A program made the position numbers and the translations under genes. Shown in pieces: positions 4,126-21,765 of a DNA stretch of 64,000 bases. How positions within the stretch are numbered: the first letter of the stretch is position 1; each line of letters starts with the position of its first letter. Source of the DNA: Rhodococcus coprophilus NBRC 100603 (GTDB lineage Bacteria > Actinomycetota > Actinomycetes > Mycobacteriales > Mycobacteriaceae); the NCBI RefSeq assembly GCF_001895045.1, contig NZ_BDAM01000009.1, forward strand, positions 124,001 through 188,000, given 5' to 3'. A model generated the notes under the pieces. It had not been told where the DNA came from and did no database searches. It saw nothing but the letters and a program-made list of their open reading frames with translations.

Positions 4126-4140
4126 TCTCGATCAGTGGGA
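4126..4140. promoter_or_regulatory. Set 1 palindrome, tetR/hsaB promoter
   Basis: Read on the minus strand the site is TCCCACTGATCGAGA, matching 12 of 15 positions of the set 1 palindrome TCCCGCTGGTCGGGA. It lies about 155 bp upstream of the hsaB-like start, so assignment is weaker than at sites nearer a gene. Confidence 0.5.
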
Positions 4141-4295
4141 GTAGTGCGACGTCGCGAAGGTAGTCGGCGCAATCAGGCGGGAACGTCCGCTGAGCGAGAA
4201 TCCGTTCGGGCGTGGCGGAGGTCACCCATACGCTCGGATTCGTGGACGTCGCCCGGACAGGAGGCGACCCGGTATTTCGAATCGGAGTGAGGCAC

Positions 4296-4814
4296 ATGCA
4301 GATTCAGTCACTGCCCCAGGAACTTGGTATCTCACCCGCCGAACAGCCCACTCCGGACGAGATGCGCAGGGCGATGGGACGTTTCGCGTCGGGAGTCACC
4401 GTGGTGACCGGACTCGACGACGACGGCCCTGTCGGTTTCGCATGCCAGTCGTTCGCGTCGGTATCGCTCGAGCCGCCGCTGGTGCTGTTCTGTGCGGATC
4501 ATCGTGGGCGGGCCTGGCCCCGGATCCGCCGTGCCGGCTGGTTCACCGTGAACGTTCTCGGTGCGGAGCAGACCGACCTCTGCGGACGGTTCGGTTCGAG
4601 CAGGGGCCTGAAGTTCGACGGACTCGACTGGGAATTGTCCCGGTGGGGAACACCCACCTTGCCGGGCGTGCTCATGCGGGTCCACGCCGAGATCCACGAC
4701 GTGCATGTCGCTGGTGACCACGACATCGTCGTCGGGCGCGTCGCCGAACTGGAGTGCCCCGCCGAGGACCGTCCGATGGTCTTCTACCGCGGCGCTTTCG
4801 GTCTCGACGGCTGA
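4296..4814 (+). CDS. HsaB-like flavin reductase (set 1)
   Basis: A 172-residue flavin reductase of the HpaC/HsaB type, with GRFASGVTVVTG near residue 30, [19 protein letters not shown] in the FMN-binding region and a C-terminal FYRGAFG. I chose the internal ATG (product MQIQSLPQEL) because GGAGTGAGG sits just before it. HsaB supplies reduced flavin to the HsaA oxygenase that hydroxylates the phenolic seco-steroid 3-HSA. It is clearly more diverged than the canonical hsaB at 57.9 kb. It is set apart from, and divergent to, the other set 1 hsa genes, unlike the usual hsaADCB order. Confidence 0.8.
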   Translation: MQIQSLPQELGISPAEQPTPDEMRRAMGRFASGVTVVTGLDDDGPVGFACQSFASVSLEPPLVLFCADHRGRAWPRIRRAGWFTVNVLGAEQTDLCGRFGSSRGLKFDGLDWELSRWGTPTLPGVLMRVHAEIHDVHVAGDHDIVVGRVAELECPAEDRPMVFYRGAFGLDG

Positions 4815-4828
4815 TCTGCCGTCGAGAC
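4801..4828. terminator. Hairpin at the end of hsaB-like gene
   Basis: GTCTCGACGG pairs with CCGTCGAGAC across 8 bases, overlapping the stop codon of the hsaB-like gene. A second hairpin follows at once; together they separate two convergent genes. Confidence 0.5.
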
Positions 4829-4830
4829 CT

Positions 4831-4856
4831 GCCGCTGCCGGTCAGCCGGCAGCGGC
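4831..4856. terminator. Hairpin between convergent hsaB-like and flavoprotein genes
   Basis: An 11-bp stem (GCCGCTGCCGG with CCGGCAGCGGC, 4-base loop) overlaps the 3' end of the minus-strand flavoprotein gene and lies 17 bases after the hsaB-like stop. Probable bidirectional terminator. Confidence 0.6.
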
Positions 4857-6308
4857 GCGTATTCCCGCCCGGCGTCCGAAGAAGCTCCCGTCTCCGAGCG
4901 AGATCCCGCTGCAGTAACCGCCCGCGGACAACCCGGACGTGCATCGGCCCGCCGCGTACAGGCCCGGAATCGGGTCGCCGTCGACGTGGAGGACCTCGGA
5001 GTGCACCGACGTCCGCAGGCCGCCCAACGTGAAACCACCCGTCATTCCGCGCAGATCGATCGCAGCGATCGGCGACCCGATCGGTTTCACCCATTCGGAC
5101 TTCTTACCGAGTACGGGATCGGCGCCGTCGGCGGCGTGCCGGTTGTAGAGCTCCACCGTCGAGGTCAGGCTTCCCTCGGGTAGACCCATCTCCGCTTCGA
5201 GTTCGGCGACGCTCTCGCACACCCACGTGGGCTGCCTGCGCAGCTGCGGGCTCGAGCTCGGCGCGGCCATCCCCTCCTCGTAGGCGTCCTCGTCGAGGAC
5301 GAGGAACGCCTGGTTGTCGTTCTGGTACATCGTGAGGTGGCCGATCCGGCCGGGGTAGGTGTCCTCGGGGACGTACCGCTGGCCGCGTCCGTTGACGAGG
5401 ATGCCGCGCGCGATCAGTTGCGGGTCGCAGAAGAACGCCACCTCGCACGCATCCATGTGCGCCAGTCCCGCACCGAGCGCCTGCGCCATGAGGATTGCGC
5501 GGCCGTCGTGTTCCTCGACCGTCGCGGCTGGCCGCTTGTAGAGACGCGGCGCGTATGCCTGCATCATCTCGTCGTTGTAGGCGAACGAACCTGTCGCGAG
5601 CACCACGCCGCCGCGGGCACGGACGGTGATCTCCTTGCCGAACCGGGTGGCCGACACGCCGACGACACGTCCGGTGTGGTCGGTGACCAGACGCTGCACG
5701 CGGATGTCGGACTCGACGCGGACACCGAGGTCGTCCGCCTTCGCGAGGAGCGTGGTCATCAGTACGTGCCCGGCTCCCTGCTCGCCGTTACGCGGCATCG
5801 GGACCTGCGCGAGGTGGCCGCGCGGTGCCGGCGGCACGAGCGTGTGGAACGGTGCGGCGTTCTCTCCCCCGCTGTACATGAGCGAGTCGTCGACGGGGCA
5901 TTCCCATCCGGGCTGGGACCAGAAGCTCTCCTTGTACTGCACGCCGCACGCTTCGAGCCACTCGAAGTGCTGCACGCTGCCCTCGCAGTAGACGTCCAGC
6001 TTGTCCTCGTCGACGCCCGGCCCGAGCGCCTCGGCGAGAAAGGTCTTCATGTTCTCGGGGGTGTCGTCGAATCCGCATGCCTTCTGCACGCGGGTGCCGC
6101 CACCGAGGTAGACGATGCCCCCGGACAATGCGGCGGCTCCGCCGCCACCGCTGGTGCGTTCGAGTACCAGGACGTCGGCGCCGCTCTCGGCAGCACCGAT
6201 GGCCGCGGACACCCCGGCGATGCCGAAGCCCGCGATCACGACATCCGCCTCGAAGTCCCAGGTGTCGACGGCATCGGCGGATATCGGACGAATCGGTGAA
6301 CTACTCAT
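4842..6308 (-). CDS. FAD-dependent 3-ketosteroid dehydrogenase-like flavoprotein (Kst4D/KstD family)
   Basis: A 488-residue FAD_binding_2 flavoprotein. The dinucleotide-binding motif GFGIAGVSAAIGAAESGADV is near residues 26-45, followed by a Gly-rich GGGAAALSGG, and the C-terminus has GLYAAGRCTSGLSAGGY and SLGDGSFFGRRAG. That C-terminal pattern looks to me more like the 3-keto-5-alpha-steroid delta-4 dehydrogenase group than true delta-1 KstD, so a delta-4 role is suggested, not proven. The ATG was chosen for an AAGGGG ribosome site 8 bases upstream; an in-frame GTG lies two codons earlier. It is last in the hsaD-hsaA-hsaC-hsaA direction but has its own promoter-distance gap with a perfect set 1 palindrome. 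Confidence 0.75.
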   Translation of the reverse strand: MSSSPIRPISADAVDTWDFEADVVIAGFGIAGVSAAIGAAESGADVLVLERTSGGGGAAALSGGIVYLGGGTRVQKACGFDDTPENMKTFLAEALGPGVDEDKLDVYCEGSVQHFEWLEACGVQYKESFWSQPGWECPVDDSLMYSGGENAAPFHTLVPPAPRGHLAQVPMPRNGEQGAGHVLMTTLLAKADDLGVRVESDIRVQRLVTDHTGRVVGVSATRFGKEITVRARGGVVLATGSFAYNDEMMQAYAPRLYKRPAATVEEHDGRAILMAQALGAGLAHMDACEVAFFCDPQLIARGILVNGRGQRYVPEDTYPGRIGHLTMYQNDNQAFLVLDEDAYEEGMAAPSSSPQLRRQPTWVCESVAELEAEMGLPEGSLTSTVELYNRHAADGADPVLGKKSEWVKPIGSPIAAIDLRGMTGGFTLGGLRTSVHSEVLHVDGDPIPGLYAAGRCTSGLSAGGYCSGISLGDGSFFGRRAGIRAAAG

Positions 6309-6386
6309 GGGCACAGCCCCTTCCGCGTCACGGCCCAGTGGTCTCCCCCGGACCGTAAGCCGACTCCGGCCGATCGACCGCGAACA

Positions 6387-20737: not shown

Positions 20738-20762
20738 TAGTGACCAGCCGGTTAGTGACCAG
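20738..20762. repeat. 10-bp direct repeat in the leader of the FadD17-like gene
   Basis: TAGTGACCAG occurs at 20738-20747 and again at 20753-20762, 15 bp start to start, ending 15 bases before the TTG start. On the gene strand each unit reads CTGGTCACTA, and its CTGGTC part equals the centre of the set 1 palindrome. Confidence 0.5.
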
Positions 20763-20820
20763 ATGAGGACGTCACAGACGGTTCGATCACAACAGACGAC
20801 TGTGGTCGGCCGAGTCACAT

Positions 20821-20835
20821 TCCCGACCAGCGGGA
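20821..20835. promoter_or_regulatory. Set 1 palindrome before FadD17-like gene
   Basis: TCCCGACCAGCGGGA is the exact reverse complement of the 15-mer at 6387-6401. It lies in the 125-bp gap between the MaoC stop and the ligase start, 98 bp upstream of the start. Confidence 0.7.
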
Positions 20836-20848
20836 GCGAAGAGACCTG

Positions 20849-21682
20849 CTATCGCTCGGCGAACACGGCGTGGCCGCCCGAGAGAACTGCACCGGCGTCG
20901 GTGGCCACGTCGAACCGGACGTCGCCGGCACCGCCCCACGCACGGATTTCCGCAACGTCCCCGGGAAAGACGGGAGCGGCGAACCGGCCGGACAACGCGG
21001 TCAGATCGGCCGGGTGTGCGCCGAGCATCCGCGCGAGCGGCAGGGTGGTCGCCGCGAGCGTGCAGAGCCCGTGCAGGATCGGCCGCGGCTGCCCGATGCG
21101 GGCGGCGGCCTCCGGGTCGATGTGGATGTGGTGCCGGTCGCCGGTGAGCCGGTAGAGAACGGCCTGCTCGGCGTGGGTGGCCAGAGTGCCGGCCGAGTCG
21201 GGTTCACCGTCCGGGTGGCCGGGCGCCGAAGGCCCTCGCTCCCCACCGAATCCCCCCGCTCCGGGCGCGAACAGCGACCAGGTGGCGACGAAGAACTCAC
21301 TCTCGACGACGACCTCGAACACTGCGGCGCGGCCCTTGTCCCAGACTTCTCCGACGCGGGCGTTCATCGTGATGCTGCCCGAACGCGGCAGCGGTGCCCG
21401 GACCTCGAGGCTCTGGGAACCGTGGAGCGCGGTCTTCGTGTCGAACGCGCCGAGGGCACCGAGGGCGTCGGGCGCCCACTGGGCCAGGGTCAGAGCGAAC
21501 GTCGGCAGGACGCGCAGACGCTCCTCGAACACGAGGTCGAGGTCTGTGGCGCGGGCGCCGACCGCCAGCGCGTACAGGATCGCGTCGCGCTCGTCGTAGG
21601 CGACCGTACGGGTACCGAGGTCGGCACCTCGCCAGGTCGCCGGCGTCGTCGTATCGGTCGTGGTTACGGCGTCTGTGGGCAT
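20849..21682 (-). CDS. MaoC-type double-hotdog enoyl-CoA hydratase
   Basis: A 277-residue MaoC-family hydratase. The hydratase-2 motif YRLTGDRHHIHIDPEAAARIG lies near residue 180 (Asp and the second-shell His of the D-x4-H pair), followed by PILHGLCTLA. The N-terminal half is a degenerate hotdog, as in the two-domain eukaryote-like hydratases. Such enzymes hydrate the 24-enoyl or 22-enoyl-CoA of steroid side chains (ChsH3-like). It lies upstream of the FadD17-like gene and divergent to another CoA ligase, consistent with side-chain beta-oxidation of the set 1 substrate. Confidence 0.82.
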   Translation of the reverse strand: MPTDAVTTTDTTTPATWRGADLGTRTVAYDERDAILYALAVGARATDLDLVFEERLRVLPTFALTLAQWAPDALGALGAFDTKTALHGSQSLEVRAPLPRSGSITMNARVGEVWDKGRAAVFEVVVESEFFVATWSLFAPGAGGFGGERGPSAPGHPDGEPDSAGTLATHAEQAVLYRLTGDRHHIHIDPEAAARIGQPRPILHGLCTLAATTLPLARMLGAHPADLTALSGRFAAPVFPGDVAEIRAWGGAGDVRFDVATDAGAVLSGGHAVFAER

Positions 21683-21750
21683 CGTTTCGTGTCCTTTCCC
21701 GGGCGTGCTGTTCGCACGCTAGGCACCGCGTCGGCAGAGGTCACCAGGCA

Positions 21751-21765
21751 TCCCACTGACCGGTA
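21751..21765. promoter_or_regulatory. Set 1 palindrome in maoC/fadD divergent promoter
   Basis: TCCCACTGACCGGTA matches 11 of 15 positions of TCCCGCTGGTCGGGA and lies between the divergent MaoC and CoA ligase genes. Confidence 0.45.

Follow-up and report, generated by a model that had tools for sequence, protein, structure and literature searches.

The 64,000-nucleotide stretch of the Rhodococcus coprophilus NBRC 100603 genome described here (the window; positions 124001-188000 of contig NZ_BDAM01000009.1, C9 below, with negative positions lying to its left) carries a group of steroid-degradation genes, designated set 1, whose promoters share a 15-bp palindrome of the approximate consensus TCCCRCTSANYGGGA. 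At a probability of roughly three in four, we propose that this 15-mer is the operator of an IclR-family activator encoded at 11008-11895 (IclR-A), which would drive a dispersed bile-acid (cholate) regulon. Computation establishes the motif and its conservation, the presence of iclR alongside it, the targets and the fixed spacing. What is new is a TAnnnT hexamer that stands, in part of the flanks, exactly 29 bp after the palindrome, and the lack of a -35 signal, which suggests an activator. The outcome is a candidate regulator gene, operator, promoter layout and target list for cholate control, together with a point of access to promoters that steroid biotechnology makes use of.

A 2021 review describes control of the R. 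jostii RHA1 cholate genes as separate from that of the cholesterol genes, and knowledge of it as limited (PMC8399759, section 28); the only regulator mentioned in its treatment of these genes is a KstR homologue encoded in the cluster (PMC8399759). A group working on R. ruber concluded that regulators besides KstR must act on kshA1 and kshA2 (PMC8228715), and the legend to a figure of an R. ruber steroid cluster names an iclR gene, the legend itself giving no function (PMC6498646). No paper assigning an IclR protein to actinobacterial steroid or bile-acid control was among the matches listed, and work beyond the searched literature is possible. A separate "KstR3" exists in Mycolicibacterium.

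A palindrome common to steroid promoters

The sequence TCCCGCTGGTCGGGA occurs exactly at 6387 (+) and 20821 (-), and a pattern scan of the 4.55-Mb genome gave no further copy. In the sequence-only reading these two sites formed a perfect pair in reverse orientation. Related 15-mers lie between genes at 4126, 10001, 10964, 12012, 13306 and 21751. All of these were in the nine-site list of that reading. Its ninth member, 18570 (TTGTGCCGGTCGGGA), offered as the kshA site, was rejected as a poor match with no site listed there in relatives; the conserved site is at 18642 (TCTCACTAGGCGAGA, 10.9 bits with our own matrix), and sites at 4185 (the better placed of the two at hsaB) and 14912 (kshB) had been missed. 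Genome-wide, 32 places match the palindrome with at most one mismatch, seven of them in the 24 kb from -1679 to 21765.

A second matrix owes nothing to the window. It was learned from 170 promoter regions in seven clusters of other genera around the IclR orthologue (ten were fetched and three near-duplicates omitted), with no seed from the window. An unguided palindrome search of these regions placed TCCCGCTcAGCGGGA at the top (score 196, 33 sites), while mononucleotide shuffles of the same set reached best scores of 51, 55, 73, 51 and 54; AT-rich palindromes scoring up to 135 also came from real promoter DNA, so that the shuffles underestimate the background. A free expectation-maximization search returned only the coding-like pattern ACCATCATCGAAATC, and the palindromic search was used instead.

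Applied at 14 bits to 144 kb of C9, this outside matrix found eight sites, distributed over 7 of the 15 promoter stretches of set 1; the 68 other promoter stretches had none (Fisher p 1.5e-6), and 40 palindrome-preserving permuted matrices averaged 0.05 set-1 sites, with a maximum of 2. Four more C9 matches fell outside called promoter stretches, at -1679 and, in called coding DNA, at 1578, 41651 and 60273. When C9 and 80 kb more of the genome's own DNA were scanned, the 13 promoter matches of 14 bits comprised the eight of set 1 and five on contig C10, where 60 kb had been chosen because of the steroid paralogues there; stretches of C1, C3 and C6 were omitted from this control, having been picked because they held a match. 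Three kshA or hsaC loci on C10 (C10:90001-130000 and 188001-208000; L197, L198, L199) each have one or more IclR-family genes nearby.

Within the genus, promoters were scored with the outside-genus matrix at 11.5 bits over 330 bp upstream. A site was present at every hsaB (12/12), iclR (16/16), hsaD (14/14), mfs (10/10), kshB (9/9) and maoC (9/9) promoter, and at many of those of kshA (11/12), hsaA2 (11/14, measured from a start 35 bases late), oye (12/16), sdr2 (8/13), kstD (5/9), fadD_b (6/12) and fadD_a (5/12). Operon-internal or neighbour-regulon genes had few (hsaA1 1/10, cyp 2/10, fadA5 2/10), and in the same scan none was found for hsaC (0/14), sdr (0/12), thiolase (0/6), ech (0/10), acadE28 (0/8) or acadE29 (0/8). 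With our own matrix at 13 bits, 14 of 17 loci with a set-1-type kshA gene had a site no more than 420 bp upstream. In 11 of these it stood at a common place 126-160 bp upstream, the window's own copy not being one of the 11, and in three the sole site was at 334-376 bp, a position occupied by the neighbouring gene; kshA paralogues had no site within 420 bp (0/13). A rank test of flank conservation was only moderate (windows at the ligase site ranked 78/365 and at the SDR site 60/315) because the coding parts of the upstream stretches are better conserved.

Promoter layout, remote loci and the candidate regulator

Spacing was read from 252 intergenic sites, the flanks of which were thinned to 335 non-redundant sequences. 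TAnnnT stood at offset +29 in 41 of the 335 and at +30 in 15, against a mean of 1.78 per offset and 5 for the next best; thinned flanks of sites labelled coding had it at +29 in 4/48 cases, probably at mis-called genes. No -35 signal accompanied it: in the 36 thinned sequences that have the box, the base preceding it was the only spacer position to exceed 0.25 bits. In the window's genome a TA at +29 was found in 8 of 19 site/orientation rows (p 6e-10, post hoc), namely at hsaB, kstD, oye, mfs, kshB, kshA, maoC and the -1679 site, and the transporter side of the C6 locus described below also has one. Among the genus promoters tested, a site with a -10 hexamer at +29/30 was present at 12/12 for hsaB, and a site with a -10 hexamer at 9/9 for kshB, 9/9 for maoC and 5/9 for kstD.

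Many of the regulated promoters would then consist of the palindrome, 29 (sometimes 30) bp, a TAnnnT -10 box and no recognisable -35 element. If the hexamer is set at -12 to -7, the palindrome would cover approximately -56 to -42, with its centre near -49, and IclR bound against the -35 region could recruit RNA polymerase. We infer activation because the spacing is rigid and the -35 box is missing. Judged from the sequence, binding by IclR with ligand-controlled activation is the most likely mechanism, the inducer probably being a bile acid or an early coenzyme A (CoA) or ring intermediate.

The motif had been thought to be restricted to set 1. Good sites lie outside it at C9:122321 (window -1679), C1:861704 and C6:36174. 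The first is 131 bp upstream of an SDR gene and recurs in relatives. At C6 the site is flanked by an ABC-transporter operon and by the gene of a CoA ligase 70-73% identical to the ligase in five other-genus clusters. The C1 site is upstream of an SDR gene adjoining genes for a TetR protein, a thiolase, a double acyl-CoA dehydrogenase and a MaoC protein (identities to other-genus cluster genes: SDR 77-85%, thiolase 79-85%, double acyl-CoA dehydrogenase 70-85%, MaoC 65-80%). Scanned with the outside matrix at 13 bits or more over 600 bp upstream, the remote ligase promoter had a site in 17/17 genus loci and the remote SDR promoter in 14/17, the other three being one at 12.6 bits and two with none; SDR paralogues had a site in 2/13 only and the set-1 ligase paralogue in 12/13. 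One genus member (G006) has iclR approximately 30-37 kb from the hsa genes, with the motif at both places.

Because the genes of the remote loci and set 1 form one RHA1-cholate-like cluster in other genera, set 1 is part of a dispersed bile-acid regulon and not a new pathway. In this genome the regulon would extend over at least three loci: set 1 lies in the cholesterol hot spot on C9, C6 would contribute a locus of CoA-ligase and ABC-transporter genes, and C1 one of side-chain genes (SDR, thiolase and acyl-CoA dehydrogenase). In other genera, G265 and G040 among them, hsaB and hsaD are neighbours of the IclR gene; next come a KstD-type FAD gene, three genes, HsaA and hsaC, with kshA farther along. 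The RHA1 cholate cluster ro05797-ro05811 has the same gene order, with hsaE, hsaG and hsaF in the middle (PMC4810484, Table 1), to which the three other-genus genes correspond by position. The RHA1 cluster (ro05797-ro05813 region) thus shares gene content and order with other-genus loci carrying this IclR and motif, and the window's genome holds orthologues of both its ring and its side-chain genes. It differs in that these genes, in order within a single cluster in other genera, are split over C9, C1 and C6 here, and in that a regulator and an operator are now proposed.

The cluster's acyl-CoA dehydrogenase marker is present in 70 of 301 family genomes (1e-220). In a nearly complete genus member, G007, the KshA copies are only 63-65% identical to set-1 KshA, and at the cut-offs used IclR-A, the TetR, the C6 ligase and the dehydrogenase marker were not found. 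The solved chain nearest to the window's KshA is 4qdf_B, which we take to be R. rhodochrous KshA1. The KshA1 enzyme of R. rhodochrous is cholate-induced and dedicated to cholate (PMC4064121).

The gene at 11008 had been named as the natural candidate for the regulator, and the motif accompanies its orthologues over several genera. Its product has HTH_IclR (8.3e-11, N-terminal) and IclR_C (3.6e-33, C-terminal) domains; the nearest named records are from Rhodococcus sp. 105337 (93%), R. sp. CH91 (80%) and R. gordoniae (79%), four loci in all. Orthologues (60-93%) lie beside hsaD/hsaB in most loci examined. With our own matrix, and within at most approximately 1.5 kb on each side of the gene, a site of at least 12.5 bits was found at 34/34 IclR-A loci and at 2/13 loci of IclR-B, a 64% paralogue. 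The palindrome core YCRY-N3-RYGR fits the group 1 operator core YCRY-W3-RYGR from a study of 1257 IclR regulators (PMC8222616, section 13), with S, not W, at the central position. Domain make-up and core are shared with other group 1 regulators (PcaR, CatR, NdgR and others); the outer pairs TC...GA, the steroid regulon and the fixed 29-bp link to the -10 box are different. The recognition helix LPRSTVHRILDQ is identical in 33 of the 34 IclR-A proteins (L058 differs).

The gene for IclR-B is at C6:27900-28649 (L034), approximately 7.5 kb from the C6 operator, and cross-talk is possible. Comparison of recognition helices was rejected as a means of telling IclR-A from IclR-B, since the helices are nearly alike. 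Genome G152, taken at first to lack IclR-A, was dropped as a test case: its iclR orthologue (L310, approximately C5:48400-49300 of that genome) is present but split over two frames in the assembly, with the operators kept. In a more distant genus (G057; L314/L315) a 55% IclR and the motif occur together with hsaD, HsaA and kshA; the genes for thiolase and acyl-CoA dehydrogenase are at another location next to a different IclR gene, where the 20 kb read held no 12.5-bit motif.

Activation, pathway and binding protein weighed

Several observations weigh against the proposed reading. By crude count the motif is weak: with up to three mismatches the window holds 13 matches against 6.1 expected (13 was reached in 3/100 shuffles), the bare TCCC-N6-CGGGA frame is not enriched in the window (51 against 41.8; 13/100 shuffles), and chance matches in coding DNA exist, for example at 41651. 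The sites at 18642 and 14912 are weak in the window's genome. The outer pairs depart from the published GKT/WTT flanks (PMC8222616), and the helix is nearly the same in 13 IclR-B proteins, so that IclR-B could bind too. At 152/252 of the intergenic sites neither orientation shows TAnnnT at +29/30; these may be second sites, serve repression or use other -10 forms. The sites at 10001, 10964, 4126 and 20821 likewise have no TA at +29, and a repressing or second role is possible there. The TetR protein encoded in set 1 occurs in 80 of the 301 family genomes, together with cholate-type genes, and the palindrome is frequent in the promoter of its gene. Finally, the R. ruber authors propose a repressor acting on kshA1 and kshA2, whose promoters are without KstR boxes (PMC8228715).

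The best placed of the alternatives, though still an unlikely one, is that IclR is a classical repressor acting on the same operators and released by a bile-acid intermediate, the spacing merely serving to block the polymerase. Many IclR proteins act as repressors, and the 152 sites without an exactly spaced TAnnnT fit such a role. The R. ruber proposal points the same way, as does the finding that minimal kshA1 promoter fragments of that organism were active in an apramycin test on LB plates (PMC8228715). Where the box is found, however, its exact 29-30 bp spacing and the missing -35 signal argue for a need of polymerase contact, whereas repressor sites would usually be scattered. The kshA1 and kshA2 promoters of R. 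ruber Chol-4 resemble those described here in having no KstR motif, in their induction by cholate and in a palindrome noted near the promoter (PMC8228715), and the putative -10 of kshA1, TAGCGT (PMC8228715), is the hexamer at +29 at the window's kshA; they differ in that a repressor is assumed, the account of these promoters naming no regulator (PMC8228715).

It is less probable that the motif controls a further, non-bile-acid steroid pathway, such as a branch for androgens or sterols, which shares genes with the cholate set. Set 1 does sit in the cholesterol hot spot; besides cholate (8.8-fold), cholesterol (6.5-fold) and androstenedione (2.3-fold) induce R. ruber kshA1 (PMC8228715); and the RHA1 kshA3 set responds to 7-ketocholesterol too (PMC4064121). 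On the other hand, the set includes side-chain genes orthologous to those of the cholate cluster, and deletion of kshA3 in RHA1, as told in the same paper, showed KshA3 to be essential for growth on cholate (PMC4064121).

A little more doubtful again is binding of the palindrome by KstR-like TetR proteins, namely the TetR encoded at 3399-4028 and a related one at C1:860692. The TetR is related to KstR (5e-22), and a KstR homologue stands in the RHA1 cholate cluster according to the 2021 review (PMC8399759). Since the TetR is widespread together with the motif, co-occurrence alone cannot decide which protein binds. The core, however, is of the IclR type, and a paralogous steroid locus on C10 has two other IclR genes, no such TetR and a TTCCGTTGAACGGRA-like palindrome between divergent genes. 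This sister palindrome has TA at +29 on one side in 8/11 genomes and at +30 in one more; towards hsaA-hsaC, most genomes carry (C/G)ACTGT-like hexamers at +29 or +30. A better candidate for a TetR operator is CTAGAAYNAATACTARTTCT. It is found with at most five mismatches at the promoter between the SDR gene and the second KstR-like TetR gene (C1:860692-861294), at C1:861752 (L032:9752), and near the SDR gene of every other-genus cluster but one (9/10, G181 being the exception); its half-sites are KstR-like, and the window holds no match at the same cut-off. It is likely to be the operator of the C1 TetR, and the TetR probably uses an operator other than the 15-mer. IclR is favoured over TetR because the C10 palindrome keeps company with IclR and not TetR, and because CTAGAAYNAATACTARTTCT provides a separate TetR-type site.

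The different palindrome once assigned to the promoter of the set-1 TetR gene, AATTCGCACGTCGAATT, was not kept in 19 other TetR upstream stretches, G012 being partly similar. A masked motif search of TetR upstream regions returned mostly artefacts of the masking itself (CGCGCG), apart from two GC-rich palindromes that were weak.

With IclR as the preferred binder, a wider proposal can be made, to which we would give even odds: rhodococci and related genera may run bile-acid degradation through an IclR activator whose operator replaces the -35 element at a rigid 29 bp, duplicated clusters with their own IclR and a shifted palindrome forming parallel codes beside KstR and KstR2. An origin of the repeats by chance or codon usage in GC-rich DNA, with which crude counts barely above expectation and 333 genome-wide matches at up to two mismatches (161 with the reversed pattern) might be reconciled, is refuted by the cross-genus matrix, by promoter conservation amid shifting sequence and by the spacing to the -10 box.

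Set 1 and the neighbouring KstR and KstR2 boxes

Set 1 runs in the order TetR, hsaB, KstD-like, HsaA-like, hsaC, second HsaA, hsaD, IclR, old-yellow-enzyme protein and MFS, followed by kshB, SDR, kshA, CoA ligase, MaoC and another CoA ligase (Table 1).

Table 1. Genes of set 1 and palindromes in their promoters (window positions)
Feature	Position	Strand	Remarks
TetR-family gene, KstR relative (rival regulator)	3399..4028	-	domain and homology searches
hsaB (flavin reductase)	4296..4814	+	
KstD-like FAD dehydrogenase	4842..6308	-	
HsaA-like, acyl-CoA dehydrogenase fold, first copy	6497..7666	-	69-75% to copy beside kshA in other genera
hsaC, extradiol dioxygenase	7704..8627	-	
HsaA, second copy	8706..9920	-	69-80% to cluster copy of other genera
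hsaD, alpha/beta hydrolase	10045..10920	-	
iclR, candidate regulator IclR-A	11008..11895	-	HTH_IclR and IclR_C; orthologues 60-93%
Old-yellow-enzyme type oxidoreductase (oye)	12137..13282	+	
MFS transporter	13430..14872	+	
kshB, reductase	15003..16055	+	
kshA	17346..18506	-	closest solved chain 4qdf_B (1.5e-250)
Acyl-CoA ligase (fadD)	19044..20723	-	
MaoC-like hydratase	20849..21682	-	
Acyl-CoA ligase (fadD)	21780..23600	+	coordinates of the longest open frame; actual start probably internal
Second palindrome TCCCACTGATCGAGA, tetR/hsaB intergenic	4126..4140	-	no TA at +29 in either direction
Predicted hsaB operator GTCCGCTGAGCGAGA	4185..4199	+	-10 TACGCT at 4229-4234 (+29)
Predicted kstD operator TCCCGACCAGCGGGA	6387..6401	-	-10 TACGGT at 6352-6357 (+29)
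Palindrome TCCCGCTCAGTGGAA upstream of HsaA gene at 8706	10001..10015	-	no TA at +29
Palindrome TCCCGGTGACCGGGA, hsaD/iclR interval	10964..10978	-	no TA at +29
Predicted operator TCCCACTCAACAGGA, iclR/oye interval	12012..12026	+	TACAAC at 12056-12061 (+29, oye direction)
Predicted MFS operator TCCCGATGAGCGAGA	13306..13320	+	TAGAAA at 13350-13355 (+29)
Predicted kshB operator TCCCGCCTACCGGGA	14912..14926	+	-10 TACCGT at 14956-14961 (+29)
Predicted kshA operator TCTCGCCTAGTGAGA, weak here	18642..18656	-	-10 TAGCGT at 18607-18612 (+29)
Palindrome TCCCGCTGGTCGGGA upstream of fadD at 19044	20821..20835	-	TGTGAT at +29
Predicted operator TACCGGTCAGTGGGA, maoC/fadD (21780) interval	21751..21765	-	-10 TAGCGT at 21716-21721 (+29, maoC direction)

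KstR and KstR2, both TetR repressors, have operators of the TNNAACGTGTTNNA and AAGCAAGNNCTTGCTT types (PMC8228715); scanning used the looser forms TNNAACNNGTTNNA and ANCAAGNNCTTGNT. No exact KstR box (TnnAACnnGTTnnA) was found between window positions 1 and 25000, and no exact KstR2 box (AnCAAGnnCTTGnT) in the stretch scanned. The motif is thus distinct from both, as the sequence-only reading had it; its third, separate steroid regulon holds as to separateness from KstR and KstR2, but not as to confinement to set 1 or a new pathway, given the remote loci and the cholate-cluster orthologues. The KstR and KstR2 regulons also serve steroid catabolism and share the hot spot; they differ in having TetR-type operators, no exact box of which lies in set 1.

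Exact KstR boxes flank set 1, the nearest being at -13326, -6109, 61584 and 63735. With one mismatch, KstR boxes occur in coding DNA at 8146, 9317 and 15273 and upstream of the thiolase gene at 24906; one-mismatch KstR2 boxes are at 25035 (ipd side), -1725, 17698 (inside kshA), 41214 and 41815. An identical 14-mer, AGCAATCGCTTGGT, one mismatch from the KstR2 box, stands at 25035 (thiolase/ech interval) and at -1725, beside the -1679 site. The exact KstR boxes at 61584 and 63735 both read TATAACGTGTTCTA; the former lies directly upstream of a kshA paralogue (C9:185622, window 61622) and the latter farther on.

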